Under the pieces are notes generated by a model. It worked only from the letters and a program-made list of their open reading frames with translations, did no database searches and was not told where the DNA came from. Of a stretch of DNA of 33,017 nucleotides, positions 17,079 to 32,510 are shown piece by piece (the first letter of the stretch is position 1; each line of letters opens with the position of its first letter). Source of the stretch: a bacterium (GTDB lineage Bacteria; SM23-81; DAOVCL01); contig JAOZPP010000033.1 in NCBI GenBank assembly GCA_029932675.1, positions 1 through 33,017 on the forward strand, written 5' to 3'. The position numbers and the translations under genes were made by a program.

Positions 17079-18524
17079 CTATCCCTTCCACCGCACATCG
17101 AGATCTTTGGCCGCCTTCCTTTCATCAAGCCTAGAGACAGGGGTCGTATGAGGAGCTGATCTTACCAACTCAGGGTCTTCCTCTACCTCTTGTGCAATTT
17201 TCTTCATCGCTTCGACGAAGCCATCCAGGCTCTCCTTGGACTCAGTCTCAGTAGGTTCAATCATTAAGGCCTCAGGGACGATGAGGGGGAAATATACTGT
17301 GGGGGCATGGAAGCCATAGTCTAAGAGCCTCTTGGCGATATCCAGGGTCTTCACCCCTTTGGCCTTCTGGCGAGAGCCGGAAAGGACGAACTCATGAAGG
17401 CAGAAACGATCGAAGGGAAGGTAATAGTAGTCCTTGAGACCCTTCATTAGATAATTGGCATTGACTATCGCCCCCTCGCTAACCTCCCTCAACCCTTTGG
17501 CCCCTAACATCCTTAGATAGATATAGGCCTTAACCATAACTCCAAAGTTACCATAGAATCCTTGCATTTTCCCGATGGAATTGGGCTGGTCGTAGTCAAA
17601 CTTATAACCCTTTTCGCCCTTCTCTACGAGGGGCACAGGGAGGAAATCGACCAGCTTTTCATTAACTCCCACCGGGCCAGATCCAGGTCCCCCACCCCCA
17701 TGAGGGGTAGAGAATGTCTTATGCAAGTTGAGGTGGACTGCATCGAATCCCAAATCACCCGGTCTGGTTATCCCCAAAAGGGCGTTCATATTAGCCCCAT
17801 CCATGTAGAGAAGAGCTCCCACCTGATGCACCAAATCAGCAATCTCCTTGATGTGGGATTCAAACAATCCCAAGGTATTAGGATTGGTGAGCATCAAAGC
17901 TGCCACATCCTTGTCCATTAGTCTCCTTAACTCCTCGAGGTTCACCAGCCCTTGGGGATCAGACTTTACCTCTACTGCCCGATATCCGGCTAAGTGGGTA
18001 GAGGCGGGGTTTGTCCCATGGGCAGAGTCAGGTATAATCACCTTCTCCCTGGGGTTTCCCCTCTTGGTATGATAGGCTCTGATCATCAGTAAGCTGGTTA
18101 ATTCCCCTTGGGCACCAGCAGCAGGTTGGAGGGTAAAGCGAACCATACCTGTTATCTCACAAAGCATTTCCTCCAGCTCATACATCAATTTCAAAGCTCC
18201 CTGAACTGTCCTTTCCGGTTGATAGGGGTGGAGGTCACGAAAGCCAGGAAGCTTGGCCAACTCCTCTCCTACCTTGGGGTTGTATTTCATCGTGCAGGAA
18301 CCAAGGGGGTAAAGGCCTTGATCAACATGGTAGTTTAATTGGGAGAGGTTAACAAAATGGCGAACAACCTCCACTTCGCTTACCTCTGGCAGTTGCGGTG
18401 GATATTCCCTGAGCACTTCCGGTGGGAGAAGCTCCTCTGGAAATAGGGGAGGCACATCGGGTTTGGGTAGGGCATATCCTACTTTCCCCCTTCCGCTAAG
18501 TTCAAAAATCAGTTTATCGGCCAT
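17079..18524 (-). CDS. gcvPB: Glycine decarboxylase (P-protein) subunit 2
   Basis: The C-terminal half of the P-protein as a separate polypeptide, 481 residues, normal for the two-subunit type. It carries the PLP site: [23 protein letters not shown] contains the Lys that forms the Schiff base and the glycine-rich loop. Other markers are [18 protein letters not shown] near residue 65, [12 protein letters not shown] and [13 protein letters not shown]. With GcvPA it decarboxylates glycine and passes the aminomethyl group to GcvH. It starts one base after the gcvPA stop (TAA-A-ATG), so translation is coupled. Confidence 0.97.
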
Positions 18525-18525
18525 T

Positions 18526-19878
18526 TTAACCTCTTCTCTTAGCTGAAGGGATTTCCTTCAAATTTTCAATGAGAAGGTCCATCTCTTCCTTGCTCCTTTT
18601 CTCTGTTGTAGCTACAAGAAAGCCATCGCCCATCCCGAACCTTCCCAAGTCCGGCCCGACAAAGATTCCCTGCTCCGCCAAGAAGTCAATCACCTCTTTG
18701 GCCGAGAGGGGGGGGACAACGGCAAACTCCTTGAAAAAGGGCGATGGGTATCTCAGTTTAAATCCATCTATCTCGCATAAATGTCTCTGCAGGTAATGGC
18801 ATTTCTGAAGGCAGAGAAGGGCCAGATCCCTTATCCCTTGGCGGCCGAGCAAGGTCAGGAAGACGGTGGCGGCCAATGCATTTAAGGCCTGGTTTGTGCA
18901 TATGTTGGAGGTGGCCTTCTCCCTTCTAATGTGCTGCTCCCTGGTCTGCAGAATGAGAACGAAGCCTCTTCTCCCTTGGCTGTCCACAGTTGCTCCCACC
19001 AGCCTGCCTGGCAACTTCCGCATAAATTCCTTCCTGCAGGCAAAAAAACCCAGATATGGGCCGCCGAAACAGGTAGGGTTCCCCAAGGCTTGGCCCTCCC
19101 CCACGGCGATATCTGCCCCGTAGTCACCCGGTGGTTTGAGGATACCTAAAGAGATAGGATCTACCACCATTACCAAGAGGGCCCCCACCCGGTGCACTAA
19201 CTCGCCTACCTGATTGAGGTTCTCCACCACTCCCAGGAAGTTTGGATTCTGGATGATCACCGATGCTACCCTCTCATCGAGCATCCCCGCAAGCTTATCC
19301 CAGTCTGTCCCTCCCTTCTTCAACGGTATCCTCTTCACCCTGAGGTTTAAACCGCTGGTATAGGTGGTCAAGACTTGAAAATGAGCCGGATTGAGCGCTT
19401 CGGAGACTAAAATGGTCTCCCTTCCGGTGATGGAATAGGACATAAGCGCTGCCTCTGCCGTTGCTGAGGCCCCATCATACATGGAAGCATTGGCCACATC
19501 CATTCCAGTAAGTTCACAGATCAAGCTCTGATATTCATAGATGGCCTGGAGAGTCCCTTGGCTTACCTCGGCCTGATAAGGAGTATAGGCTGTATAGTAT
19601 TCGCTCCTTTCGATAATGGAGGAGACAGCGGCTGGAACCCAATGGTCGTAGGAACCTCCCCCTAAAAAGCAGATGTGGTGAGCGAGGTCGTGATTCTCCT
19701 CGGATAGCCTGAGCATGAGCCGGGAGATCTCTATCTCGGAGAGGGGAGGGGGAAGATCAAGGGGCTTCCTTAACCTGAACTGGGGGGGAATGGAGGAGAC
19801 AAGATCAACAAAGCTCTCCACGCCGATGGAGGAAAGCATCTCCCTTCTCTCCTCAGCTGATATCGGTATCCAGCACAT
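18526..19878 (-). CDS. gcvPA: Glycine decarboxylase (P-protein) subunit 1
   Basis: The 450-residue N-terminal-type P-protein subunit. It shows the expected [60 protein letters not shown] and [17 protein letters not shown], and the glycine-rich [21 protein letters not shown]. As expected for this half, no Schiff-base Lys is seen; that lies in GcvPB. The ATG is 2 nt after the gcvH stop, with GGAGGG before it. Order gcvH-gcvPA-gcvPB is common, but gcvT (aminomethyltransferase) and lpd are not in this window and must lie elsewhere if the system works. Confidence 0.97.
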
Positions 19879-19880
19879 CC

Positions 19881-20270
19881 TTAGTGACCCTCCTCTTCCT
19901 CTATTAACTTCTCATAATCGGCAGGGGAAAGGAGGTTCTCCAGCTCGCTGGGGTCCTCTATCCGTAGTTTTATTATCCATCCTTCCCCATAGGGATCGGA
20001 ATTGATCAGCTCCGGTTTATCCGTCAACTGAGAATTGACCTCCAGTACCTCTCCCGATACTGGGGCATAGAGCTCCGAGACGGCCTTCACCGCCTCAATC
20101 GTAGCAAATGGCTTCATCTGTTCCACCTTCTTACCCTTCGTCGGCAGTTCTACAAAGACAATATCGCCAAGTTCACCCTGGGCGTAATCGGTTATCCCCA
20201 CCGTGCCCTGATCACCGTTCACCTTTATCCATTCGTGCTTTTTGGTGTACCTTAGGTCATCTGGGACCAT
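19881..20270 (-). CDS. gcvH: Glycine cleavage system H protein (lipoyl carrier)
   Basis: This 129-residue lipoyl-domain protein shuttles the aminomethyl group between P-, T- and L-proteins. The lipoylated Lys is K62 in TIEAVKAVSELYAPVSGEV; the domain begins with LRYTKKHEWIKV and YAQGELGDIVFVELP. AAGGAGGAG lies directly before the ATG. It is the first gene of its unit, with a promoter-like sequence about 30 nt upstream. That short leader leaves no room for a glycine riboswitch. Confidence 0.97.
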   Translation of the reverse strand: MVPDDLRYTKKHEWIKVNGDQGTVGITDYAQGELGDIVFVELPTKGKKVEQMKPFATIEAVKAVSELYAPVSGEVLEVNSQLTDKPELINSDPYGEGWIIKLRIEDPSELENLLSPADYEKLIEEEEGH

Positions 20271-20300
20271 CTCTCCTCCTTAGCTTATACAGTTGCCCTC

Positions 20301-20328
20301 AATATAAGATGATCGATCTTTAATTCAA
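20301..20328 (-). promoter_or_regulatory. Possible sigma-70 promoter for the gcv operon
   Basis: On the - strand TTGAAT (20328-20323) is followed after 16 nt by TATATT (20306-20301). It fits between the terminator-like hairpin of the radical SAM gene and gcvH, with a leader of about 24 nt. Confidence 0.4.
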
Positions 20329-20351
20329 GCTTTTTATTCCCCCTAAAAGAT

Positions 20352-20365
20352 GGTGGCTTTCCACC
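20352..20365 (-). terminator. Hairpin terminator after the radical SAM gene
   Basis: GGTGG-AAAG-CCACC (5-bp GC stem, tetraloop), read on the - strand, comes directly after the stop of the radical SAM gene and is followed by ATCTTTTA. Short, but well placed before the gcv promoter. Confidence 0.5.
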
Positions 20366-20366
20366 T

Positions 20367-21062
20367 CTATGTCCCTCGCACCTCCACCCTATCTACATAG
20401 GACCGCATAACCTCGGCAAATCCCCTCAACCTATCGGCCGGATAGGGCCTGAGTCGGGAAAGGGAAGGGTCCAAGGTGGTACCCGGCCTGAACTGCTGGA
20501 GAACATAGAGTCGACCCCCTTTGACCAATTCCCCTATCCCCTTTAGGTCACCCTCATCTACAAATCCCGGGACAAAGGTCGTGCGCAGCTCATATTCCAC
20601 CCCTGAATCAATTAAGAGGGCTATGCTCTTCTCTATCCTTCTCAGGTCAACCTGAAGGCCAGAGGCCAGGGAGTAACGTTTAGGGGAAGATTTAATGTCC
20701 AAGGCGATATAGTCCACAGCCCTTTTCTCAATAAGCTCCTCTACCCTCTGGGGAAGGTAGCCATTTGTATCCACCTTCACCTTCAACCTTAGCCCCTTTA
20801 GCCGCCGACAGAAGGAAACCAATTCCTCCTCTATAGTAGGTTCCCCTCCGGTGATACAGACACCATCGATGAAACCTTTCCTTTGGCTTAGTCTTTTGAT
20901 AAGCTCTTCCTCAGGAATGGTTGGGATCCTTTGGTAGTCGAGCACAAGGTCTCGGTTCTGGCAGAAGGGGCAACGGAAGTTGCAACCACCAGTAAATAGG
21001 GTGGTAACAATCCTCCTCGGAAAATCAACAGTCGAGACCCCTTGTATGCCCTTGATCTTCAA
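20367..21062 (-). CDS. NrdG2-type radical SAM protein (anaerobic RNR-activating-like)
   Basis: This 231-residue radical SAM protein has the CxxxCxxC cluster motif in FTGGCNFRCPFCQNRDLV (Cys 27, 31 and 34), binding a [4Fe-4S] cluster that cleaves S-adenosylmethionine. VCITGGEPTIEEELVSF is the SAM-binding GGEP motif. Sequence and length fit the family named anaerobic ribonucleoside-triphosphate reductase activating protein, NrdG2 branch (TIGR02495). No nrdD is nearby, so its glycyl-radical partner, if any, is elsewhere. The start is TTG at 21062, giving the family's usual MKIKGIQ start; no clear Shine-Dalgarno precedes it. It follows citF by 68 nt and may be co-transcribed with the citrate-lyase block. 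Confidence 0.85.
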   Translation of the reverse strand: MKIKGIQGVSTVDFPRRIVTTLFTGGCNFRCPFCQNRDLVLDYQRIPTIPEEELIKRLSQRKGFIDGVCITGGEPTIEEELVSFCRRLKGLRLKVKVDTNGYLPQRVEELIEKRAVDYIALDIKSSPKRYSLASGLQVDLRRIEKSIALLIDSGVEYELRTTFVPGFVDEGDLKGIGELVKGGRLYVLQQFRPGTTLDPSLSRLRPYPADRLRGFAEVMRSYVDRVEVRGT

Positions 21063-21130
21063 TTCAGAGTCTTTGATCGCTTCATTCAGGGGGAAACTAT
21101 CTCATAAATAACCCTCTGTGGGAATCCGAA

Positions 21131-22681
21131 TCAATCTATCTTCATCTTCACCACATCGATTACCGTCCCATCGACCCATTGAACAGCAGCCACTACCCTA
21201 TTTTTATCAACCTTTGGGGGAACCGGTGGCCCCCCGCAGATCTTTTCCACTTCTTCCTTTATCTCCTCAATGGGTCTAATGGGGAGTGAAGAACCCCGCA
21301 CCGCCTCCAATAGGTCCTCCCGGCGTGGGTTGATGGCAATGCCCCTCTCCGTGACCACTACATCGATTAGTTCCCCGGGGCCACAGAGGGTGGTTACCCG
21401 ATCAACGATAATTGGGATTCGGCCGCGAAAGGAGGGCACTGCCAGGATGGTGCACTTGGAGAAGAGGCAATCTTGCCACCCCCCAATGCCGTGGAGCAAT
21501 ACCCCGTCGGAGTGGGTAACCACATTGGCATTAAAGTTCGTATCCACCTCTGTTGCCCCGAGGACCACCACATCCACCATCGAGGCAAAGTGACCCTTCC
21601 CGTGGTAGCTATAACTGGTAAAGGGGCTTGTCCAGACATGATTAGGGTTATCCCTCATCGACCTCACCCCATCCAAGTCAAAAGTCTGTCCATCGAGTAT
21701 GGCTCCAGTGAGGCCCTTTTCCAATAATTCCACTAAGTACTTGGTGCTCCCCCCCCTTACCCATCCAGCCTTAACTCCAGCCTCTTGCATCATCCGCTTC
21801 AAGTAGACGACAAAAGCCAGGGAGGTTCCCCCGGCCCCGGCCTGGAAGGAGAAACCATCCTTCATAATCCCCGTCTCCTTGATGAAACGGGCGGTTAGCT
21901 CAGCAATGAGGAGCCGGGCAGGGCTTCTGGTTACCTTTGTTGTTCCGGAGATGATCTTTGAGGGATCACCGATCTCGTCCATCACCACCACATAATCCAC
22001 ATAGTTTCCCTGAATCTGCCAAGGAATACAGGGAAAAGGGACTAGGTTATCGGTGACCACAATCACCTTGTCAGCATACTGGGAGTCAGCAAGGGCAAAC
22101 ATGAGGGACCCACAGGCAGATTTCCCATATAGGGCATTAGCGTTACCAAACGGATCCGCAGTGGGGGCAGCAATTACTGCTATATCTATATGAACTTCCC
22201 CATCCTGCACGGCCCGGTACCTTCCCCCATGGGAACGGAGGACCCCTTGCCCCTTCATCTTACCCCTGGTGCAGAACTCTCCCAGTGGACCATTCATACT
22301 CCCCTCGATGTGATGCACCACTCCGCTCTCCAGGTGTTTGATAATTGGGGCATGACAGGGAAAGGAGGCACTGGGAAACCATCTTATATCCTTTACCCCC
22401 ATATCGGCAATGGTGTCAAAGAGTTGGTTGGTTAGCTTGTCCCCATCACGGAAATGGTGATGGGTAGAAATGGTCATTCCGTCCCTGAGGCCAGCAAGCT
22501 TTAAGGCTTGTCGGAGGGTAGGAATCACCTTGTCGCCATCGGTTGGATAGTTGGCACAACTGACCACTGGAGGAGCTGCCTTTCTTCCCCGCGGGATATG
22601 TTTACCCACTCCTTGGTAGGGGATGATTGGGTGGTTATTTATCTCGTCGGGCACCCATCTGCCCGCAGCGTTAACTTTCAT
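21131..22681 (-). CDS. citF: Citrate lyase alpha subunit (CitF family)
   Basis: The acyl-ACP transferase subunit of a citrate-lyase-type complex: it exchanges acetyl on the acyl carrier for citrate, giving citryl-ACP and acetate. The 516 residues match the family length. Visible features are NNHPIIPYQGVGKHIPRGRK, ISTHHHFRDGDKLTNQLF, AGGTSLAFVVYLKRMM, VVTHSDGVLLHGIGGWQDCLF and VTTLCGPGELIDVVVTERGIAINPRR. The open frame reaches 22729, but ATG 22681 is preferred: GGAAGGGAAGAG is in front and the alignable protein begins there. It then overlaps the end of the citD-citE gene by 11 nt. Citramalate lyase alpha subunits look alike, so the substrate is not fixed. citC, citG and citX are not in the window. 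Confidence 0.92.
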   Translation of the reverse strand: MKVNAAGRWVPDEINNHPIIPYQGVGKHIPRGRKAAPPVVSCANYPTDGDKVIPTLRQALKLAGLRDGMTISTHHHFRDGDKLTNQLFDTIADMGVKDIRWFPSASFPCHAPIIKHLESGVVHHIEGSMNGPLGEFCTRGKMKGQGVLRSHGGRYRAVQDGEVHIDIAVIAAPTADPFGNANALYGKSACGSLMFALADSQYADKVIVVTDNLVPFPCIPWQIQGNYVDYVVVMDEIGDPSKIISGTTKVTRSPARLLIAELTARFIKETGIMKDGFSFQAGAGGTSLAFVVYLKRMMQEAGVKAGWVRGGSTKYLVELLEKGLTGAILDGQTFDLDGVRSMRDNPNHVWTSPFTSYSYHGKGHFASMVDVVVLGATEVDTNFNANVVTHSDGVLLHGIGGWQDCLFSKCTILAVPSFRGRIPIIVDRVTTLCGPGELIDVVVTERGIAINPRREDLLEAVRGSSLPIRPIEEIKEEVEKICGGPPVPPKVDKNRVVAAVQWVDGTVIDVVKMKID

Positions 22682-23888
22682 CTTCTCTTCCCTTCCAATC
22701 TGCGGAAAGCTGTCCGTTGAGCATGGCAAGTTTCAATATCCTTTCCGCCCGTTTAACCACCGGGGGGTCGATCATCTTATTCCCTAAGGCCACCACGCCT
22801 TTCCCTTCCTGCTGGGCTTTGGCCAACGCCATGCTTACCCGCTTAGCCCACTCGATCTCCCTCTCGGTGGGAGCGAAACCTTGGTGGATAATCCTGATCT
22901 GGCTGGGGTGAATACAGCCTTTCCCCTCGAAGCCAAGGGCCTTTGCCTCCCGCACGCTCTCCTGGAGGCCCTCCTCATCTGCCAGATCTGAGTAGACGCT
23001 GTCGATGGGCTGAATCCCTGCGGCACGGGCGGCAAGGACAACTGTCTGGCGGGCCAAGCGGCTCTCCTCCCCGGCCTTTGTGCGTTCGGTCCCAATATCG
23101 GCGGTGAAGTCCTCCAAGCCTATGGTAAGGGCTACCACCCGAGGGGAGGAAGTGGCAATCCTATAGGCATTGATCACCCCCAAGGCGGTCTCTATTATGG
23201 GCATTAGGTAGATCTCTCCTTTAACTTTGTATTCTTTTTGCAAGGATTGCACCTTGGCATCCACTTCTTGGACTGTTCTTTCGTCCTCGCATTTGGGGAT
23301 GAGGATGGTATGTACCCCATGGGGGACGACGAACTCCAGGTCCGCCAAACCCATAGGTAGTTGGTTTATGCGCACCATTCGTTCTGCGCCGCGGAAGTCC
23401 ACCTCCCGCAAGGCATTACGCACCATAAAGCGGGCCGATCCCTTCTCCCCCGGAGCTACGCTATCCTCCAAGTCGAGGATGATTCCGTCAGGTTGGTAGA
23501 GGCCGGAATTGATGATCAGCCTTGGTTGATCCCCGGGGACATAGAGCCGACTCCGCCGAAAGCGGTCACGTTCTACTCCGTAGAGGTTTTCGGATAGGAC
23601 TTCCCCGAGAAACTCCTTCTTTAATGAAGGAAGGCACTTCTTGACTGCCGATTCTATCCTTGCCTTCAAGGCAAAGGGGAGCGCACCCTCATCCTCTATC
23701 TCCAGGGAGGCATTTTCGATATCAAAGAACTCCATCATCTCCTTAGCCAAGCCTCTAATGGAATCCCCATACATTGACCCTACTTTGCTTTTTAGCTTGA
23801 GGCTAATCCCCCCCCTGGGGAGGAGTTCTAACCTCACCCAACAGTCAGATGACTCTCCTTTCTTTCCCACCTCAGCGTTAACCACCAT
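22671..23888 (-). CDS. Fused citrate lyase acyl carrier protein (CitD) and beta subunit (CitE)
   Basis: One 405-residue chain joins two subunits that are normally separate. Residues about 1-100 are CitD-like: GKKGESSDCWVRLELLP, where Ser 13/14 is the expected site of the phosphoribosyl-dephospho-CoA group, then YGDSIRGLAKEMMEFF and GALPFALKARIESAVKK. Residues about 108-405 are CitE/HpcH-like: RSRLYVPGDQP, GIILDLEDSVAPGEK, MVRINQL, PIIETALGVINA and GFEGKGCIHPSQI, with the acidic metal ligands in place. The beta part cleaves citryl-ACP to oxaloacetate and acetyl-ACP. Having carrier and lyase in one chain sets them at 1:1. It starts 2 nt after the dehydratase stop and overlaps citF by 11 nt. The same design would suit citramalate lyase. 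Confidence 0.88.
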   Translation of the reverse strand: MVVNAEVGKKGESSDCWVRLELLPRGGISLKLKSKVGSMYGDSIRGLAKEMMEFFDIENASLEIEDEGALPFALKARIESAVKKCLPSLKKEFLGEVLSENLYGVERDRFRRSRLYVPGDQPRLIINSGLYQPDGIILDLEDSVAPGEKGSARFMVRNALREVDFRGAERMVRINQLPMGLADLEFVVPHGVHTILIPKCEDERTVQEVDAKVQSLQKEYKVKGEIYLMPIIETALGVINAYRIATSSPRVVALTIGLEDFTADIGTERTKAGEESRLARQTVVLAARAAGIQPIDSVYSDLADEEGLQESVREAKALGFEGKGCIHPSQIRIIHQGFAPTEREIEWAKRVSMALAKAQQEGKGVVALGNKMIDPPVVKRAERILKLAMLNGQLSADWKGREDES

Positions 23889-23890
23889 AG

Positions 23891-25720
23891 CTATCCCCCC
23901 CGTTCAAGCAAACCTCCTTTCTGATAGATCTCCAGTTGGACCTTAGAGAAAGGTTGACCGAAGAGCACCTCTCCACTGGATAATTTCTCAATCCTACCGG
24001 TGAGGAAATCAACCTCAACTTCATCCCCTGAATGGAGGTTAAGTCTCTCTATCTCACCGGCTTCCATAATGGGAAAACCAACGTTTATAGCATTTCTTTC
24101 GTAGATGCTGGCAAAGGACTTGGCGATGATCATCCCTATCCCCAGGGCCCGGAAGCAATCCACTGCCTGCTGGCGAGATGAGCCTCGACCAAAGTTTTGC
24201 CCAGCAACGATTATATCCCCAGGTTTTGCTTTTTGAGGGAAATCCTTCCACCCACTTAGGTTGCTAAAAGCGAACCTTCCCATCTGCTCAAACTCGGTAA
24301 TAGCCAAGTAGCGGTTATGGTAGATCATATCGGTATCTATATCATCCCCTTTTATGACCCAAACCCTTCCCCTCACCACCGTTGGCCTCTGCGGGCTAAT
24401 AGCCACCCCCTGCGGCTTCCCCCTCTTTATCCCTGTCTTCTGCAAGGGGAGCCGCGGCACGAAAACAGCCGGCCTCTCCGGGATCTTATCTGCTGTAGTT
24501 ATCTGCCCAGCAACCGCAGAGGCGGCAGCAGTGGCCGGTGAGGCAAGGTAGACCTCACCCAAACCCTGCTTACCCGGAAAGTTACGATTACCGGTGCTCA
24601 CCGTCACCTCGCCTGGACCGTTCTGTCCAATCTGTCCAGCCGCACAACCGGCGCAGCCAGCATTGCCCACCAGGGCCCCTGCCTCCTTGAAGAGGGAAAG
24701 CAACCCTTCTCTAAGGCAACGTTGCCAGCAACGGTCCGTGGAAGGGACGATCTTTAGTACTACCCCGGGAGCGACCTTCTTCCCTTGCAAGATCTTGGCG
24801 ACGGCCAATAAGTCCTCGTATCTCCCATTTGTGCAAGAACCAATGAATACAGAGTCGATCTTTTTACCTCTTACCGCTGCCACCGGCACCACATCCTCGG
24901 GATGGCCTGGGCGGGAGATGAGGGGGGGGAGATCCTCTATCCCTATCTCCAAACCCTTTAGGTAGTCCGCATCATCATCGGCAGAGAGCTGATGAGGTAT
25001 CTTCCCCCTTAACTTCCTGTAGTGGTCCTCCACCGCTATGTTCGGTGGGAAGAGAATACATATTCCCCCCATCTCCGTGGCCATTGAGGCAATGGTGACC
25101 CGCGAGGAGAGGGAAAGCCCCTTCACCCATTCCCCATAGAGCTCAACGGCAAAGCCTAACAGGCCGGATGCGCCCAACTCCCTAAGCATAGCCAGAACAA
25201 CATCCTTTGCGCTGGCTAAACTGGAGGGTTTGCCCTGGAGGGTAATCTTCATCGTGGGAGGAACCTTGAACCAGATCTCCCCGTGGGCAAAGGTATAGGC
25301 GATGTCCTTGTCTCCCATACCCTGTCCGAAAGCGCCCACTGCCCCCACTATATTGGCATGGGAGTCCGTGCTCACCAGCGTCTCCCCTGGGCCAACGAAC
25401 CCTTCGTCTATGGCCAGATGGGTGCCAATGCCGGCATTAATATCATAAACCCTTATTCCGTTTTCCCTGGCGAAGATTCGGCAAAGCTGCTGGTTTGCAG
25501 CATAAGATTGATCTGATCCCCCCGGGTTGCAATCAAATGTAAAGAAGGTCTTTCCAGGATCTTGAATGGAAAGGTTGTGTTTCTTTATATTCTTCACCAC
25601 ATTGGCCCCACCGAAATCGCGAGCAATCCGGGCATCGATGCGCAGATCCACCACATCCCCAGGCTTCACTGGTCCATCAGTATGGTTTTCGATGATCTTT
25701 TCGATTATAGTCTTTCCCAT
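23891..25720 (-). CDS. Aconitase-superfamily (LeuC-LeuD fused) hydro-lyase
   Basis: This 609-residue chain joins a LeuC-like large domain (1-about 425) and a LeuD-like swivel domain (about 448-600) in one protein. The [4Fe-4S] ligands are Cys 296 (GSCTNGR), 356 and 359 (GNAGCAGCAAG). D119-S120-H121 is the active-site DSH, and the swivel domain has DIDTDMIYHNRYL and GQNFGRGSSRQQAVDCFRALG. The aconitase Asp-His pair reads D63-Cys64 (TFDCNPGG), so the catalytic His is replaced. Relatives hydrate or dehydrate citrate/isocitrate, isopropylmalate, homoaconitate, citramalate/mesaconate or dimethylmalate. Next to citrate-lyase genes, an aconitase or mesaconase-like role is likely; leucine synthesis is unlikely because no leuA or leuB is near. 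It directly abuts the HD gene (TAA-ATG). Confidence 0.88.
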   Translation of the reverse strand: MGKTIIEKIIENHTDGPVKPGDVVDLRIDARIARDFGGANVVKNIKKHNLSIQDPGKTFFTFDCNPGGSDQSYAANQQLCRIFARENGIRVYDINAGIGTHLAIDEGFVGPGETLVSTDSHANIVGAVGAFGQGMGDKDIAYTFAHGEIWFKVPPTMKITLQGKPSSLASAKDVVLAMLRELGASGLLGFAVELYGEWVKGLSLSSRVTIASMATEMGGICILFPPNIAVEDHYRKLRGKIPHQLSADDDADYLKGLEIGIEDLPPLISRPGHPEDVVPVAAVRGKKIDSVFIGSCTNGRYEDLLAVAKILQGKKVAPGVVLKIVPSTDRCWQRCLREGLLSLFKEAGALVGNAGCAGCAAGQIGQNGPGEVTVSTGNRNFPGKQGLGEVYLASPATAAASAVAGQITTADKIPERPAVFVPRLPLQKTGIKRGKPQGVAISPQRPTVVRGRVWVIKGDDIDTDMIYHNRYLAITEFEQMGRFAFSNLSGWKDFPQKAKPGDIIVAGQNFGRGSSRQQAVDCFRALGIGMIIAKSFASIYERNAINVGFPIMEAGEIERLNLHSGDEVEVDFLTGRIEKLSSGEVLFGQPFSKVQLEIYQKGGLLERGG

Positions 25721-26290
25721 TTATAAGATCAGAAGGCCTTTATCTAACATAGAAATCGGTTCAAAGGTGGCAAAATCAGCATGGTGGATGAGGACGGTCT
25801 CCACCCTCTTTGGCCTCCCTTCCCCTTCCTTTGAGTGGCAAGCCACTATGTTCACCACCTCCTCAGTAAGTCCAGCTTCAGCCACTATAATCGCCCCTGA
25901 AATAGGATGGCGTGCGCATCGGCCATAACGGCTTCTCCTATAACCTTCCTCTCCCCTCTCAATCTCCAGTAGCTTTCCCACATCATGCAACAATCCACCG
26001 GCGATGAGCCAATCGTAATTGATTTCAAAGGGCATAACTTCATACTGTTCTCTCATTGAGTTTGCCAGCCCCAGCGCCCCCTCGGTAACTGCAATTGTGT
26101 GATCAATTAAACTTATCCCTTTCGTGTCGACCAACAGGGTAAACGGAATCTTCTCCAAATCGTCCGCCTTCCATCCCCCTTTTTGGGCTGCTTTGGCCCA
26201 GATCTCGACGACCTTCTCCCGGAGATGAAGATCTTTGATCTTCCCCAACTGCCCAGCAAACAACTCCCCTATTTTTGCCCGCAATTCCAT
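25721..26290 (-). CDS. HD-domain phosphohydrolase
   Basis: This 189-residue protein has HD-superfamily metal ligands: His in LIDHTIAVTEGAL, the His-Asp pair in GGLLHDVGKLLEI, then ARHPISGAIIVAEA and an HHADFATFE motif near the C-terminus. Such proteins hydrolyse phosphomonoesters, nucleotides or cyclic nucleotides; the substrate is unknown. The frame opens at 26320, inside the upstream gene. I prefer the ATG at 26290 (or 26293), because GGGAGG sits after the activator's stop and 5 nt before this ATG; the longer start has no such signal. It is locked between the sigma-54 activator and the dehydratase, so it probably belongs to the same pathway or its control. Confidence 0.85.
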   Translation of the reverse strand: MELRAKIGELFAGQLGKIKDLHLREKVVEIWAKAAQKGGWKADDLEKIPFTLLVDTKGISLIDHTIAVTEGALGLANSMREQYEVMPFEINYDWLIAGGLLHDVGKLLEIERGEEGYRRSRYGRCARHPISGAIIVAEAGLTEEVVNIVACHSKEGEGRPKRVETVLIHHADFATFEPISMLDKGLLIL

Positions 26291-26306
26291 CATATCCTCC
26301 CGAAAA

Positions 26307-27695
26307 TCAGTAGAGCCCATGTTTTCTTATTCGATCCCTCAGGGTATTCCTGCTTATCCCTAAGAGTTCGGCTGCCCTCACCTGATTGCTCCTTAACCTC
26401 TTCAGTGTTAGGCTGATTAGGGCCTTCTCTAAGGAACCAGTTAACTTGTCGTAGATTTTTCCCCTATGGGTTGTGCGTAGTTCGTCAAAAAGGGGATTGA
26501 TTAAATCAGAGAACAACTTAGTATAACTATCCTTAAACTCCTCCCCGGAAGGTGGTTTTTCCTCTTCCTGATTGATGGGGAAATGCTCCGGAAGGAGGAC
26601 ATCGCCCTTAGCCAAGATGACTGCTGTCTGCAGGTTGTTCTCCAACTCCCTTACATTTCCTGGCCAGGGATAGTCCTTGAGCAACTCCATTGCCTGGGGG
26701 GAGATGCCCCTTATCTGGCGATTGAACTGAGTGGAGAACTTCTTCAAGAAGTGGTGAGCCAACAGGGGAATGTCCCCCCTCCTTTCCCTCAGAGGGGGGA
26801 GATAAATAGAGGCCAGCTTTAAACGGTAGAAGAGGTCCACCCGAAAGGAACCTTCCCGCACGCATTTCACCAAGCTCTTGTTGGTGGCAGTAATCACTCG
26901 CACATTTACCCTTATCCCCTTGTTCCCTCCCAAGCGGTAGAACTCGTGCCCTTCTAAGACCCGGAGGACCTTGCTCTGAATGGCCGGGGACATATCGGCG
27001 ATTTCATCTAAGAATATGGTCCCCCCATCACATTGTTCCAACTTTCCTCTCCTTCTCTCCACTGCTCCAGTGAAGGCACCCTTCTCATAGCCAAAGAGTT
27101 CTGACTCCAAAAGGGTGTCCGGAATAGAAGCACAATTGACAGCCAAAAAGGGCTTCCCTCTCCTTGGGCTGTTTTGGTGGATGGCGCTGGCCACCAATTC
27201 CTTTCCGGTTCCGCTCTCCCCTTGAATGAGAACGGAGATGTCACTGGGGGCTATCTGCCCGATAAGCTTGTATATCTCCAACATCTCTGGGCTCTCCCCA
27301 ATGAGTGGTTCCTCGCCCTCTGGTGCAAGCTTTGGCAACCTCGCCACCTTCCCCTTTTTCTCCGCCTTCAGCGCCTCCTCGACAACCTCCCTTAAGGAGA
27401 GATGTGAGCCGGAAAGGGGATAATAATCATAGGCTCCCTCCCTCATCGCCTCAATAGCTAAGGAGGTGGAGACCTTCTCCGAGCAAACGATTATGGGGAT
27501 CTGGGGGTGGGTCTGATTGCACCCCCGGATCACTGCCCCCAACCCAGAGGGACAGAGGGAGGAGTCAAGCAGGATTAAGTCCACCTTTTCTATGGCCTTT
27601 AATCCCTCCCAGGAAGGGAAATTGAAGAGTTCATACCCCTCCCCCAACTGGCTAGTCAACCTCCCCCCCTCCTCTATGGCGACGATCCTTTTCAT
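26307..27695 (-). CDS. Sigma-54-dependent transcriptional activator, NtrC-like with degenerate receiver
   Basis: This 462-residue bacterial enhancer-binding protein has an N-terminal receiver-like domain (about 1-120), an AAA+ domain (about 130-365) and a Fis-type HTH (about 430-462, NQVRAAELLGISRNTLRDRIRKHG). Walker A is GESGTGKE (159-166), GAFTGA (206-211) contacts sigma-54, and Walker B is GGTIFLDE. The receiver keeps Asp 44 (LILLDSS), but the usual Lys-Pro after the fifth strand reads YYPLSG and the N-terminal acidic pair is poor, so normal phosphorylation is doubtful. No histidine kinase is nearby. The start overlaps purM by 4 nt (ATGA). It likely controls the following HD-dehydratase-citrate-lyase genes, but I see no -24/-12 promoter in the window. 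Confidence 0.93.
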   Translation of the reverse strand: MKRIVAIEEGGRLTSQLGEGYELFNFPSWEGLKAIEKVDLILLDSSLCPSGLGAVIRGCNQTHPQIPIIVCSEKVSTSLAIEAMREGAYDYYPLSGSHLSLREVVEEALKAEKKGKVARLPKLAPEGEEPLIGESPEMLEIYKLIGQIAPSDISVLIQGESGTGKELVASAIHQNSPRRGKPFLAVNCASIPDTLLESELFGYEKGAFTGAVERRRGKLEQCDGGTIFLDEIADMSPAIQSKVLRVLEGHEFYRLGGNKGIRVNVRVITATNKSLVKCVREGSFRVDLFYRLKLASIYLPPLRERRGDIPLLAHHFLKKFSTQFNRQIRGISPQAMELLKDYPWPGNVRELENNLQTAVILAKGDVLLPEHFPINQEEEKPPSGEEFKDSYTKLFSDLINPLFDELRTTHRGKIYDKLTGSLEKALISLTLKRLRSNQVRAAELLGISRNTLRDRIRKHGLY

Positions 27696-28720
27696 CCAAA
27701 TGTGACCTTCCTTGGACCCTCTCCCTTTATCTCCCCTATCGGCCAGGCAATCTGATCATGGCTTCTCAGATGAACGAGGCTTTCCTCCACCACCGAGGGG
27801 GCCACTACCAGGATGAAGCCTATCCCCATATTGAATACCTTAAACATCTCCCCCTCATTTACCTTGCCCACCTCTCTTATCAATCGAAAGACCTGAGGGA
27901 CCTCCCAACTCCCTTTCTTGATCAGAGCAGTGAGACCTGGGGGAATAACCCTGCTCAGGTTCCCTTCAATTCCCCCTCCAGTGATGTGGGCCATTCCTTT
28001 GATCCTCAATCCTGCGGAGAGGAGGCTACCAATGGCCTGGCCATAATAACGGTGAATCCGCAAAAGCTCCTCGCCCAAGGTTGTGCCGAGGTCATCGATG
28101 TAGTCATTGAGCCTCCACTCACTGAGCAGGACCTTTCTGGCCAAGGAGAAACCATTGGTGTGCAGGCCATTTGAAGCTAAGCCAATTATCTGGTCTCCAG
28201 CCCTTATCCCCGCGCCGTCTACTATCTTTCCTCTCTCCACCAAACCGAGGATGAATCCGGCGAGGTCATATTCGCCAGGCCGGTAGAAACCAGGCAGTTG
28301 AGCGGTCTCTCCCCCGATGAGGGAGCAACCGACCTCCTTGCACCCCTTGGCTAGGCCCCTAATTACCTCCTCAATAACTTCGGCTCTGATCTCAGTGGTA
28401 GCCAAGTAGTCCATAAAAAAGAGGGGGCTAGCCCCATGGACTAAGATGTCATTCGCGCAGTGATGGACGAGATCCTGACCGACGGTAGAATGTCTATCCA
28501 GCAGAAAGCCTATCTTCAGCTTCGTCCCCACCCCATCTGCACTGGCGACCAATACGGGTTCCTTGTATCCCTTTACATCCAGCTTGTATAGTCCAGCAAA
28601 CTGACGGAGGTTGGAGAGGACCCCCTTGCCCCAGGTAGAACCGATCAGCGGCCCTACTTCCTCCAAGGATTTCTGGAATACCTCGATGTCCACCCCCGCC
28701 CTTTTATAATCGATGACCAA
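27692..28720 (-). CDS. purM: Phosphoribosylformylglycinamidine cyclo-ligase (AIR synthetase)
   Basis: ATP-dependent ring closure of FGAM to AIR in purine synthesis, cytoplasmic. The 342 residues are the usual length. Signatures: YKRAGVDIEVFQKSLEEVGPL, VLVASADGVGTKLKIGF, CANDILVHGASPLFFMDYLAT, LIGGETAQLPGFY, LASNGLHTNGFSLAR and AHITGGGIEGNL. The start is TTG at 28720, fixed by AGAGGAGGT at 28729-28737, 8 nt upstream. argF ends 107 nt upstream and no terminator is obvious between. Its stop overlaps the sigma-54 activator start, so a housekeeping gene drives or shares expression with the regulator. Confidence 0.96.
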   Translation of the reverse strand: MVIDYKRAGVDIEVFQKSLEEVGPLIGSTWGKGVLSNLRQFAGLYKLDVKGYKEPVLVASADGVGTKLKIGFLLDRHSTVGQDLVHHCANDILVHGASPLFFMDYLATTEIRAEVIEEVIRGLAKGCKEVGCSLIGGETAQLPGFYRPGEYDLAGFILGLVERGKIVDGAGIRAGDQIIGLASNGLHTNGFSLARKVLLSEWRLNDYIDDLGTTLGEELLRIHRYYGQAIGSLLSAGLRIKGMAHITGGGIEGNLSRVIPPGLTALIKKGSWEVPQVFRLIREVGKVNEGEMFKVFNMGIGFILVVAPSVVEESLVHLRSHDQIAWPIGEIKGEGPRKVTFG

Positions 28721-28827
28721 CTCGTTTGACCTCCTCTACTTCCTTTGGTTCCACCCCTTCTCTTCTTTTTTCCCTAAAACGGAAACATTTGTAGAAGTCC
28801 CTAGTTCTCTTCTTCCCCTGAAAGAGT

Positions 28828-29745
28828 TCAGCCATCTCCCAAAAGCTTTACCAAGAGGGCCTTCTGGAGGTGGAGCCTGTTCTCCGCCTGATCGAAGACC
28901 ACCGAGTGGGGGCCATCAATGACCTCATCGGTTATCTCCCTTCCCCTCTCTGCGGGAAGGCAGTGCATCACCAAACAGTGGGGATCTGCATAGGTCAACA
29001 ACTCCCTGTTCACCTGAAATTCCCTTAAAAGCTGGGCTTTCTCGTTGAATCTCTCCTTCTCCCCCATGCTTGCCCAGACATCAGTATAGACCACATCTGC
29101 CCCCTCAGCCGCTTCCCTGGGATCATAGAATAACCTCACCCGGCTGGGTCCCGCATTCTGGGCCGTGGTTAAGATTTCCCTGTTTGGCTCGCACCCCTTG
29201 GCCGTTCCGATCCTTAAGTCGAGTTTGACGCGCAAGGAGGCATTGAGCCAGGAGTTAGCTACATTGTTGCCATCTCCCAGGTAGGCAATCTTTAATCCCT
29301 CGAGCTCTCCTCTCTTCTCTTTGATAGTGAAGAGATCGCTCAACACCTGGCAGGGATGGAGGAGGTCAGTGAGTCCGTTTATCACCGGCACCTCTGCCCA
29401 CTTGGCTAACTCTTCCACATCGCGATGGGAAAAAGTGCGGATCATAATCGCCTCCACAAATCTGGAGAGCACTTTAGCCGCATCGTGGATGGACTCCCTC
29501 CTGCCCAGTTGAATCTCTTGGTCAGTGATGTAGACCCCCCTTCCCCCCAATTGGTTCAACCCAACCTCAAAGCTTATCCTTGTGCGTAAAGATGGCTTGT
29601 GGAAGATCAAAGCCACAGACCTTCCGGAGAGAAGGTGGGGAGATTTTCCCTTCTTGGTCTTTTCCTTGAGCTCCGCGGAGAGCTGCAGGATATCCTCGAT
29701 CTCCTCTCGGCTAAGATCAGTTATGGAAAGAAAATCCTTTTTCAT
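28828..29745 (-). CDS. argF: Ornithine carbamoyltransferase
   Basis: Forms citrulline from ornithine and carbamoyl phosphate in arginine synthesis. The 305 residues are a normal length. The carbamoyl phosphate loop reads HKPSLRTRISFEVG (usual STRTR with Leu in place of Thr), followed by LLHPCQVLSDLFT, YLGDGNNVANSWLNAS (ornithine side), YTDVWASMGEKE in place of the common SMG loop, and HCLPAERGREI. A run in reverse to biosynthesis (catabolic) cannot be excluded, but no arcA or arcC is nearby. AGGGAG is 8 nt before the ATG. A promoter-like sequence and a 16-nt palindrome lie in its leader. Confidence 0.95.
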   Translation of the reverse strand: MKKDFLSITDLSREEIEDILQLSAELKEKTKKGKSPHLLSGRSVALIFHKPSLRTRISFEVGLNQLGGRGVYITDQEIQLGRRESIHDAAKVLSRFVEAIMIRTFSHRDVEELAKWAEVPVINGLTDLLHPCQVLSDLFTIKEKRGELEGLKIAYLGDGNNVANSWLNASLRVKLDLRIGTAKGCEPNREILTTAQNAGPSRVRLFYDPREAAEGADVVYTDVWASMGEKERFNEKAQLLREFQVNRELLTYADPHCLVMHCLPAERGREITDEVIDGPHSVVFDQAENRLHLQKALLVKLLGDG

Positions 29746-29794
29746 ACCACTTCTCCCTCTATAAAAGTGGGTGAGAGAACCCAGAATGTTAGAT

Positions 29795-29810
29795 CCCTTC
29801 TTAAGAAGGG
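29795..29810. promoter_or_regulatory. Perfect 16-nt palindrome in the argF leader
   Basis: CCCTTCTTAAGAAGGG reads the same on both strands. It begins a few bases after the predicted argF start of transcription, 50 nt before the ATG. It does not resemble an ArgR box. It may be a repressor operator or a 6-bp stem-loop at the 5' end of the mRNA. Confidence 0.5.
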
Positions 29811-29822
29811 GCAGTTTTCTTA

Positions 29823-29851
29823 AAATTAACCTTATTTCCCATAAGAGTCAA
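29823..29851 (-). promoter_or_regulatory. Probable sigma-70 promoter for argF
   Basis: On the - strand TTGACT (29851-29846) and TAATTT (29828-29823) are 17 nt apart. The inferred start near 29816 gives a leader of about 70 nt that contains the palindrome. Confidence 0.45.
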
Positions 29852-30012
29852 GCCAATTTTGGGTAAAATTGAAATGTATACAAGCTCTCTACTTCCTGGC
29901 TTCACCAAACCAAAGGCTTAAACAGCCTCCCTGATGCACTCTGCGTCATGCGATAATAACTTAATGTTGGGCTAATGTCAAAAAGATTCTCCCTATGAGG
30001 CTAAGAATTCTA

Positions 30013-30041
30013 TTGACCAAAGGAAGATGGCTGGATATAAT
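30013..30041 (+). promoter_or_regulatory. Strong sigma-70 promoter for the GH57 gene
   Basis: TTGACC (30013-30018), a 17-nt spacer and a perfect TATAAT (30036-30041). The start would fall near 30048, giving a leader of about 66 nt before the GH57 ATG. Confidence 0.7.
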
Positions 30042-30113
30042 TTACTACAATAGTTCGAATTTTCTAAGAAATCCCACCCTCCAGATAAGTAGTGACCGAA
30101 AGGAGCTAAGTTT

Positions 30114-32510
30114 ATGTCAGGAGGAAGAGGGAGGCGAAGGTTCTACTTAGTGGTTCATGGCCATTTTTATCAACCCCCCCGAGAGAACCCTTGGACAGAA
30201 GAGGTGGAGAGGGAGGTGGGTGCTTCTCCCTATCACGATTGGAACCAAAGGATCACCGACCAATGTTATCGACCTAACTCCGCCGCTCGCTTAGTTAACG
30301 GGGAGGGCAGAATTCTCGAAATTGTGAACAACTACTCCCTGATGAGTTTCAACTTTGGCCCCACCCTCCTTAGCTGGCTCCAGAGGAATGACCCAATAAC
30401 ATATGCAAGGATCTTAGAGGCCGATCGAGAAAGCCTTCACACTCACTCCGGTCATGGAAATGCATTAGCACAGGTTTACACCCACTTAATTATGCCCTTG
30501 GCCACCTATAGGGACAAGTCTACCCAGGTGAGGTGGGGAATCAAGGACTTCATCTTCAGGTTCAGAAGAAAACCAGAGGGGATGTGGCTACCCGAAGCGG
30601 CAGTGGATAGGGAAACCTTGGCGGTCCTCGCTCAAAATGGTATAAAATTCACCATCTTGGCCCCCCAGCAAGCAAAGAGGATAAGAAGAATTGGAGGGAA
30701 AAGATGGAGAAATGTCACTCCTGAATCACTTGATACCACAAGAGCTTACCGATGTTTTCTCAAGGAGAACTACATAGATATTTTCTTCTTCAATCACCCC
30801 TTCTCCTGGGAGCTAAGCTTTGGCGATCTCTTAAAGGATGGTGAGTTATTCACCCAGAGGTTGACTTCAGTCTTAAAACCGAGAGCAAGAGGTAATCAGC
30901 TCATCCTTTTGGCCACCGATGGGGAAACATTCGGCCATCATAAACCATTTGGTGAGATGGCCTTGGCTTATGTCCTTGCCAAAGCCGCGCCTCAGAGAGG
31001 GTTAAAAGTGACCAATTTAGGTGAATTCCTTGCGGAAAATCCCCCCCAATGGGAAGTAGAGATCGACGAGGGCCCCCGAGGAGAGGGTAGCTCTTGGAGC
31101 TGTAGTCACGGAGTGGAGAGATGGAGAGGGGATTGCGGTTGTTCTACCGGTGGCCAACCCCATTGGAATCAACGGTGGAGGAAACCTTTGAGACAAGGGC
31201 TGGAGTGGCTTAGTGAAAAATTAAAGGTTATCTACGAGAACCAGGCAAAGGGATATTTTAAAGATGTCTGGTGGGCAAGAGATGAATATATTGATGTGAT
31301 CCTGGACCGTAGTGCGAAATGTGTGGATAGGTTCTTTAAGAAAGTTCAATGCTTTCCTTTAAATAAGGATGAAAAGATTAAATGTCTCAAGTTATTAGAG
31401 ATGCAAAGGAATTCTATGCTGATGTTTACCAGTTGTGGCTGGTTTTTTGCCGATATCTCCGGATTGGAAACGGTACAGATACTGAAGTATGCTGCCCGCG
31501 CTATCGAACTGGCCAGATGCTTCAGCAAGGAAGATTTGGAGGGTACCTTTTTAAAGCTCCTGCACAAGGCCAGAAGTAACATTAGAAGATATGGGAACGG
31601 TAGGGGAATCTACCGCAAATTTGTCAAGCCTAAAGCGATATCCGCAAAACTTGTTATCGCCAACTACTCTATGCACCTTCCCCTTCAAAGGGCAAAAGGG
31701 AAAATAGCTCAGCCATATTCATATCAGATAGTAGATGCAAAGGGGGAGATTAAAAGGAGGAGGGGGGAAATATTTTCCTGGGGAAAAGCAAGTTTAGAGA
31801 ACATTTTTACCCAGGAGAGGGGGGATTTCCTTTACCTCTCCCGTTTTCAAAGCCAGGGGAGGCTTGACTGCTGGGTCAAGGAGTGCCATGCTCTGCTCCC
31901 CTCCCCTCCCTCCTCCCTCGAGGAGCTTATCTCCCAGGTTGAAACCGAACGGGGTTGGGAGCATTTCGCCCTGGAGGGACTTCCCGGTGAATGGAAGGGG
32001 GAAATCCTAAGAGCAATGAAGGGGATGATGCTGCAGGAAGTTAGCCGGAGGTGGAGAGGGATTTACCAAAATAATCTTGCTCTAATGCTCTATCTTAAAG
32101 AGAGAGGTGAGACAATTCCTCAAGTCCTTAAGCAATTGTTCTCCTTTTTGCTCACCCAGGAGATAGAGGAGGGTCTGCGGGGGATGAGAAAGGGGTTTGA
32201 GAAGAACTACAAGTTTGTTAATAAACTGCATTCGGAGGTAGATATGATTGGCTTTCCTCGCGTTGATAAGGGAAAGTTAGCATCCCTTCTCTCCGATCTC
32301 ATCTTGGAGGGAATTGAGTCTCTTTGCAAAAGGGTCTCTGAGAAGGAGGTCATTAAGGTAAATATGCTTTTGGATCTTGCAGATAATTGGGGGTTGAAGC
32401 CAGATTTGAGGGGGGCACAGGAGAGCTTTTACCCCCTCTGGAAGGGGTTAAGAGGGGCAATCAATGTTTCCTTAAGGGAGTTAGCCGAGAGATTGGGGTT
32501 CAGCGTTTAA
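30114..32510 (+). CDS. Glycoside hydrolase family 57 protein with DUF3536 domain
   Basis: A 798-residue cytoplasmic-looking enzyme (no signal peptide). The N-terminal GH57 (beta/alpha)7 barrel starts with YLVVHGHFYQPPRENPW and has HTHSGHGNALAQVYTHLIMPLA. The likely nucleophile is Glu 161 in GMWLPEAAVD and the acid/base is Asp 269 in LLATDGETFGHH. The DUF3536 region follows, with SSWSCSHGVERWRGDCGCSTGG and NQRWRKPLRQGLEWL, then a helical C-terminal half. GH57 enzymes act on alpha-glucans (amylase, branching enzyme, 4-alpha-glucanotransferase). The DUF3536 subgroup has no assigned activity that I know of. AAAGGAG sits 8 nt before the ATG. It is a single gene under its own near-consensus promoter. 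Confidence 0.93.
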   Translation: MSGGRGRRRFYLVVHGHFYQPPRENPWTEEVEREVGASPYHDWNQRITDQCYRPNSAARLVNGEGRILEIVNNYSLMSFNFGPTLLSWLQRNDPITYARILEADRESLHTHSGHGNALAQVYTHLIMPLATYRDKSTQVRWGIKDFIFRFRRKPEGMWLPEAAVDRETLAVLAQNGIKFTILAPQQAKRIRRIGGKRWRNVTPESLDTTRAYRCFLKENYIDIFFFNHPFSWELSFGDLLKDGELFTQRLTSVLKPRARGNQLILLATDGETFGHHKPFGEMALAYVLAKAAPQRGLKVTNLGEFLAENPPQWEVEIDEGPRGEGSSWSCSHGVERWRGDCGCSTGGQPHWNQRWRKPLRQGLEWLSEKLKVIYENQAKGYFKDVWWARDEYIDVILDRSAKCVDRFFKKVQCFPLNKDEKIKCLKLLEMQRNSMLMFTSCGWFFADISGLETVQILKYAARAIELARCFSKEDLEGTFLKLLHKARSNIRRYGNGRGIYRKFVKPKAISAKLVIANYSMHLPLQRAKGKIAQPYSYQIVDAKGEIKRRRGEIFSWGKASLENIFTQERGDFLYLSRFQSQGRLDCWVKECHALLPSPPSSLEELISQVETERGWEHFALEGLPGEWKGEILRAMKGMMLQEVSRRWRGIYQNNLALMLYLKERGETIPQVLKQLFSFLLTQEIEEGLRGMRKGFEKNYKFVNKLHSEVDMIGFPRVDKGKLASLLSDLILEGIESLCKRVSEKEVIKVNMLLDLADNWGLKPDLRGAQESFYPLWKGLRGAINVSLRELAERLGFSV

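Follow-up and report, generated by a model that had tools for sequence, protein, structure and literature searches.

A citrate lyase-like gene block with a CitD-CitE fusion probably forms the core of a conserved, carrier-free acid-cleavage module

Which acid is cleaved by a citrate lyase-like enzyme whose carrier and lyase subunits are fused and encoded directly behind an aconitase-family hydro-lyase, and does this enzyme use the acyl carrier of citrate lyase at all? The question is raised by a five-gene block on a bacterial contig, of which a stretch of 33,017 nucleotides (the window) was analysed. Genomic CitDEF genes are taken to encode citrate lyase, and from this citrate fermentation or a reverse TCA cycle is deduced. 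The initial annotation proposed an unassigned acid-cleavage pathway for this block, in which a hydro-lyase is followed by a carbon-carbon lyase. Our analysis indicates that the block probably forms the centre of a conserved module for acid cleavage, with a lyase that is likely to be a carrier-free representative of the citrate lyase family.

The ORF listing confirmed five open reading frames on the minus strand across 21131-27695. The first encodes a sigma-54-dependent activator (26307..27695) with a receiver-like N-terminus, an AAA+ domain and a Fis-type HTH (Pfam Sigma54_activat and HTH_8). It overlaps by 14 nt the gene of an HD-domain protein (25721..26320; Pfam HD), a recurrent partner of the lyase, which is followed with 0 nt spacing by the gene of hydratase A (23891..25720), a 609-aa aconitase-superfamily hydro-lyase with fused large and small subunits (Pfam Aconitase and Aconitase_C). 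The CitD-CitE fusion, CitDE (22671..23888; 405 aa; Pfam ACP(CitD/MdcD) and HpcH_HpaI), lies 2 nt further, and the CitF alpha subunit, a CoA transferase (Pfam CitF), completes the block. The listed CitF ORF of 532 aa begins with a TTG at 22729 and would overlap CitDE by 59 nt. The ATG at 22681, with an overlap of about 11 nt, is probably the best start because the N-terminus there, MKVNAAGRWVP, matches those of the homologues, and we prefer the coordinates 21131..22681. The description of five real and compactly packed genes therefore stands, with neighbours overlapping or at most 2 nt apart. Directly downstream of the cluster, we read by eye a radical-SAM activating-enzyme-like gene (window 20367-21062) and glycine cleavage genes encoding an H protein and two P subunits (window 17079-20270); a same-genus genome (G001) has the same radical-SAM and glycine cleavage set downstream of its cluster.

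To what extent is this arrangement conserved? CitDE fusions were found in 28 of the 386 genomes surveyed, a sample with mostly one genome per family. The gene order is HD, A, CitDE, CitF in the same-genus genome, and A, hydratase B, CitDE, CitF in a genome of the same phylum (G002). In the neighbourhoods fetched from other phyla, the repeated module consists of a beta-decarboxylating dehydrogenase, the HD protein, A, B, CitDE and CitF, with B either fused or split into large and small subunits. The module dehydrogenases of L066, L069, L075, L134 and L023 share 70-77% identity with the copy at L068. Hydratase A was not seen in the clusters L023, L071, L082 and L083, which carry a PrpD homologue, and a TIGR00139-type hydratase occupies the place of B in L023, L073, L074 and L076. 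Scanning the genome contigs with the HD protein returned one locus, in Melioribacter, and a single-protein comparison against plasmids returned only ordinary citD+citE pairs. The adjacency of HD, A, CitDE and CitF is not due to chance, as they are neighbours in other genomes too, and the block is part of a widespread and apparently undescribed bacterial gene set. The expected joint conservation of all five genes thus held for these four and failed for the sigma-54 gene, and the proposed succession of hydro-lyase and carbon-carbon lyase in an unassigned acid-cleavage pathway was supported, with the unit recurring across genomes.

Two further genomes showed variant arrangements. In G243 (97% complete), locus L080 contains a CitDE fusion and no CitF was detected; another CoA transferase or ligase may be its partner. 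The small genome G262 carries three citDEF loci (L054, L055 and L056) on one contig of 1,848,474 bp. L054 has split hydratases A and B and a module-type dehydrogenase, yet a Ser-type CitD, and CitD, CitE and CitF are near-identical between L055 and L056. No glutamate mutase was found in G262.

The initial annotation assumed that the lyase uses a CoA-like acyl carrier. The prosthetic group of E. coli CitD sits on Ser14, and our alignment confirmed that residue 14 is Ser. Among the fused CitDE proteins aligned from 28 genomes, the carrier position is occupied by R, K, N or A, and by Ser only in the window (Ser13) and in L069/G084. Among the standalone CitD proteins, only that of L081 departs from Ser, with Lys at this position; the CitE of this locus clusters with the fused proteins. 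Moreover, a family search for CitG and CitX (PF01874 and PF03802) gave no match in the window genome. Genome-wide, CitG and CitX were present in none of the 28 genomes with only fused or K-type CitD, whereas 10 of the 11 genomes with Ser-type unfused CitD had both (Fisher's exact p 2e-8, uncorrected for relatedness). The ten include G107, a natural internal control bearing both a canonical citCDEF-G locus (L045) and a CitDE-CitF pair of the carrier-free type (L072). The lone exception, G110 (L059), combines a Ser-type CitD and CitC with no CitG/CitX genome-wide. The L059 CitE has M where canonical CitE has R101; this locus possibly encodes another carrier-free or differently primed lyase. Gaps in metagenome-assembled genomes may explain single absences, but not the 0/28 pattern. 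No citC was found in the window or in the neighbourhood of any fused-type locus. The reported lack of citC, citG and citX in the window was thus confirmed, and for citG and citX it extends to the whole genome. Because the carrier attachment site is unconserved in the clade and CitG/CitX are missing, we infer a lyase that seems to run on ordinary CoA, with CitD kept as a structural domain, and the assumed acyl carrier was not borne out. Our search of open-licence papers returned nothing relevant on a citrate lyase without a carrier or on CitD-CitE fusions. That the window CitDE is instead a normal carrier protein, modified by an unrecognised enzyme, would agree with its Ser13 and the Ser in G084, but is very improbable considering the Ala of the same-genus orthologue (76% identical), the VRAD of the same-phylum orthologue with no Ser nearby, and the genome without CitG/CitX.

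Features of the lyase domain point in the same direction as a CoA-using enzyme. The fused and K-type CitE sequences group in a single clade (95/88), distinct from canonical CitE. E141, D142, R173, E233, D260 and the lid residue D374 of CitDE are kept in 30/30 fused proteins; these are all the lyase residues that PMC3832036 names for malyl-CoA lyases. R101 of canonical CitE is replaced by L in 26/30 fused proteins; CLYBL, malyl-CoA lyases, DrCitE and MtbCitE carry M, L or V at this site. Every fused protein and each of the five structures has His at position 327, where canonical CitE mostly has Asn. The positions that separate the clades, R101 and 327, therefore look like those of CoA-thioester lyases of known structure. 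We dropped R114 of CitDE as a contact to the CoA 3'-phosphate, as CLYBL has V there. The AlphaFold model of CitDE (pLDDT 93) found its best fold matches in malyl-CoA lyases and CLYBL bound to CoA. The window CitDE scored 288 against TIGR01588 citE, below the cut-off of 443. CitF passed the TIGR01584 equivalog cut-off (510.1 vs 501.45 bits), and a single Glu (E394 of the 532-aa ORF) is conserved across all CitF proteins of both lyase types. The component reactions of ordinary citrate lyase subunits with free CoA are those of citrate CoA-transferase (EC 2.8.3.10) and citryl-CoA lyase (EC 4.1.3.34).

Hydratase A forms its own clade (100/99) and B a separate one (87/88); for the dehydratase and CitE, the phylogenetic comparison suggested at the outset thus placed each in a clade of its own. 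Both hydratases fall in the PRK00402, TIGR02086/02087 subfamily by HMM. A carries the motifs DTDM...RYLAIT and NRNFPGK (NRNFxGK in the clade), and B carries NTDV..PGKYTYT. In the motif comparison, neither had the aconitase TDH...LRS loop, and A had no NRNFxGR; the loop reads STDH...LRSN in the true aconitase of the window genome (contig C68) and TTDH...LRSN in aconitases of ordinary citrate lyase operons (read in L048 and L055). The best solved relative of A is the isopropylmalate/citramalate isomerase of M. jannaschii. Where the small subunit of the solved homoaconitase has an Arg (YLRT), A (YLAI/YLTI) and B (YTYT) have none. B shares its PGKYTY loop with the TIGR00139-type hydratase of the Melioribacter cluster, which scores 867 bits against the homoaconitase cut-off of 530. 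The methylcitrate cycle uses two hydratases, PrpD and then AcnB, and two hydratases also split the two half-reactions of fungal homocitrate metabolism in lysine synthesis. By analogy, the exchange between A and PrpD fits one enzyme per half-reaction.

The window genome (97% complete) holds the whole module on three contigs, with hydratase B on contig C109 (L130) and the module-type dehydrogenase on contig C21 (L132). At L130:8242-11422, the gene for the large subunit of B overlaps one that scores as 5'-deoxyadenosine deaminase, and the same-genus genome has this pair as well (L133). A separate operon for citrate synthase, aconitase and IDH lies on contig C68 (L131). E. coli Icd, the ICDs of citrate lyase operons and the IDH encoded on C68 all have S-[LI]-N at E. 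coli positions 113-115, the established site for the isocitrate gamma-carboxylate. All eight aligned cluster module dehydrogenases and the C21 enzyme have S-P-I or S-A-I there. The module dehydrogenases belong to the LEU3_arch/AksF family, and their highest scores are against AksF homoisocitrate dehydrogenase models, albeit below the cut-off. PF00682 synthases (2-isopropylmalate, citramalate and homocitrate) were found in none of the window genome, G001 and G002, and LysX exceeded its cut-off only in G347 among 19 genomes and stayed below it in the window genome. Leucine or lysine synthesis therefore does not explain the genes here.

How could these enzymes act together? CitF would convert acetyl-CoA and R-C(OH)(COO-)CH2COO- to the acyl-CoA and acetate, and the CitE domain would split the acyl-CoA ester into a 2-oxoacid and acetyl-CoA, which would be recycled, with the CitD domain serving as structure only. 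A (or the PrpD homologue) and B would interconvert 2- and 3-substituted malates via the unsaturated acid, and the LEU3_arch/AksF-family dehydrogenase would carboxylate or decarboxylate at the other end. The proposed sequence is R-CH2-CO-COO- + CO2 + NAD(P)H -> R-CH(COO-)-CH(OH)-COO- -> unsaturated acid -> R-C(OH)(COO-)-CH2-COO- -> R-CO-COO- + acetate, and the net reaction would be 2-oxoacid + CO2 + NAD(P)H <-> acetate + a 2-oxoacid one carbon shorter. Both the role of CoA as carrier and the direction are what we infer from sequence; cleavage is suggested as the direction because the equilibrium makes it unfavourable to form the tertiary acid with free acetate. No PF00180 dehydrogenase was found in G001 and G002 (90% and 92% complete), and carboxylation is therefore not a step shared by all these genomes. 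As a whole, the scheme of a reverse chain elongation, in which carboxylation of a 2-oxoacid would be followed by isomerisation through two dedicated hydratases and by carrier-free cleavage in a widespread, undescribed pathway with a non-citrate substrate, remains tentative, somewhat short of even chances.

As to the substrate, citramalate, homocitrate or a similar acid appears more likely than citrate. A route from 3-methylmalate via citraconate or mesaconate to citramalate, and on to acetate and pyruvate, would link 2-oxobutyrate and pyruvate. The solved relative of A, the missing homoaconitase Arg in A and B, which fits a small non-acidic side group, and the dehydrogenase without the isocitrate Asn all favour it. 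Such residue rules are indirect, however, and none of the window genome, G001 and G002 has a PF00682 citramalate synthase, which leaves citramalate possible but doubtful as the specific substrate.

Only slightly behind comes the ordinary citrate route, from isocitrate via citrate to acetate and oxaloacetate by a variant citrate lyase, as in the citrate branch of the reductive TCA cycle; we consider it doubtful as well. The CitF score above the citF equivalog cut-off speaks for it, as do the Ser-type clusters, in which citDEF is accompanied by a single aconitase and an ICD-type dehydrogenase. A reverse TCA cycle via citrate lyase has been proposed for Geobacter bemidjiensis (PMC2996986), and Melioribacter roseus is without ATP-citrate lyase (PMC3534657); we counted both in its favour. 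However, the module dehydrogenases carry S-P-I/S-A-I rather than the isocitrate-type motif, A and B are without the aconitase loop, and two dedicated hydratases are present where one aconitase would suffice. Since the module enzymes do not have the isocitrate and aconitase signatures kept by the separate C68 set, a plain isocitrate-to-citrate route is unlikely, and this part of the initial annotation is weakened.

Less probable still is the homocitrate route, 2-oxoadipate <-> homoisocitrate <-> homoaconitate <-> homocitrate <-> 2-oxoglutarate + acetate. The AksF-like dehydrogenases, the TIGR00139 score of the Melioribacter hydratase with the loop shared by B, and the precedent of two hydratases in fungal lysine synthesis are in accordance with it. 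Yet B does not have the homoaconitase Arg loop, and the distribution of LysX argues against lysine synthesis in the window genome. The mesaconate-citramalate-pyruvate reading as part of the methylaspartate route was rejected: glutamate mutase (PF06368), already reported missing from the window, had no match in the whole window genome and none above the cut-off in 30 genomes searched, and the adjacent hydro-lyase is of the aconitase family, whereas mesaconases of such clusters belong to the class I fumarases (PMC4682846).

The HD protein and the sigma-54 activator had been considered unusual partners for citrate lyase. For the HD protein, this view does not hold, as it is a regular partner that occurs in nine genomes including the window genome. 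Its residues H74, D113, H138, H162 and D182 are invariant in seven homologues. A fold search with its AlphaFold model (pLDDT 85) returned only weak matches to the HD superfamily (YhaM-like and HD phosphohydrolase), weakly suggesting an HD-hydrolase-like fold. The HD proteins of L069 and L023 have another residue in place of the His in the HD pair (ADVGK and IDVGK) but keep the other metal-ligand positions, and the family may be without the usual two-metal binding. The sigma-54 gene, which overlaps purM by 4 nt, had no counterpart beside the related clusters in the neighbourhoods of relatives, and TrmB-like and XRE-type regulators occur instead at L068 and L069. Its link to the module is therefore local. 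A simple sigma-54 promoter pattern gave no site in window 20,000-30,500, and a role as dedicated regulator of the cluster is at most putative.

If the clade is free of the prosthetic group and probably acts on a non-citrate acid, deducing citrate fermentation or a reverse TCA cycle from such genes would be a mistake in many uncultured lineages. The clade would also offer a simpler, CoA-using citrate lyase that works without activation enzymes and lends itself to direct expression in other hosts, as well as an extra acetate-forming, CO2-using route between 2-oxoacids.

The closest known systems include the ATP-independent citrate lyase (CitDEF, EC 4.1.3.6; E. coli citCDEFXG), with homologous gamma, beta and alpha subunits, the order D-E-F and the same lyase residues. 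It differs from the enzyme described here, in which CitD is fused to CitE, the carrier Ser is unconserved in the clade, CitE forms a separate clade, the genome has no CitG/CitX and the cluster no CitC/X/G. CoA-thioester lyases such as malyl-CoA lyase, CLYBL and RipC share the barrel and its residues, the kind of residue found at positions 196 and 327 and, as we propose, the use of free CoA esters; unlike them, CitDE still has a CitD domain and is paired with CitF, and by phylogeny it lies nearer to true CitE. The citryl-CoA synthetase and citryl-CoA lyase of Hydrogenobacter likewise cleave in two steps via a free CoA ester, as proposed here, but their synthetase is ATP-dependent, in contrast to the putative ATP-free CoA transfer by CitF, and their lyase is a different one. 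The citrate lyase operons with aconitase and ICD (L047, L048, L049 and L051) follow the same logic of dehydrogenase, hydratase and CitDEF, although with one PRK07229-type aconitase, an ICD of isocitrate signature, a Ser-type CitD and CitX/CitG. Finally, A and B are members of the homoaconitase/isopropylmalate isomerase family, in which A stands apart as a fused clade with NRNFxGK, and, in contrast to the setting of LeuCD-type isomerases, the window genome encodes them without a PF00682 synthase.
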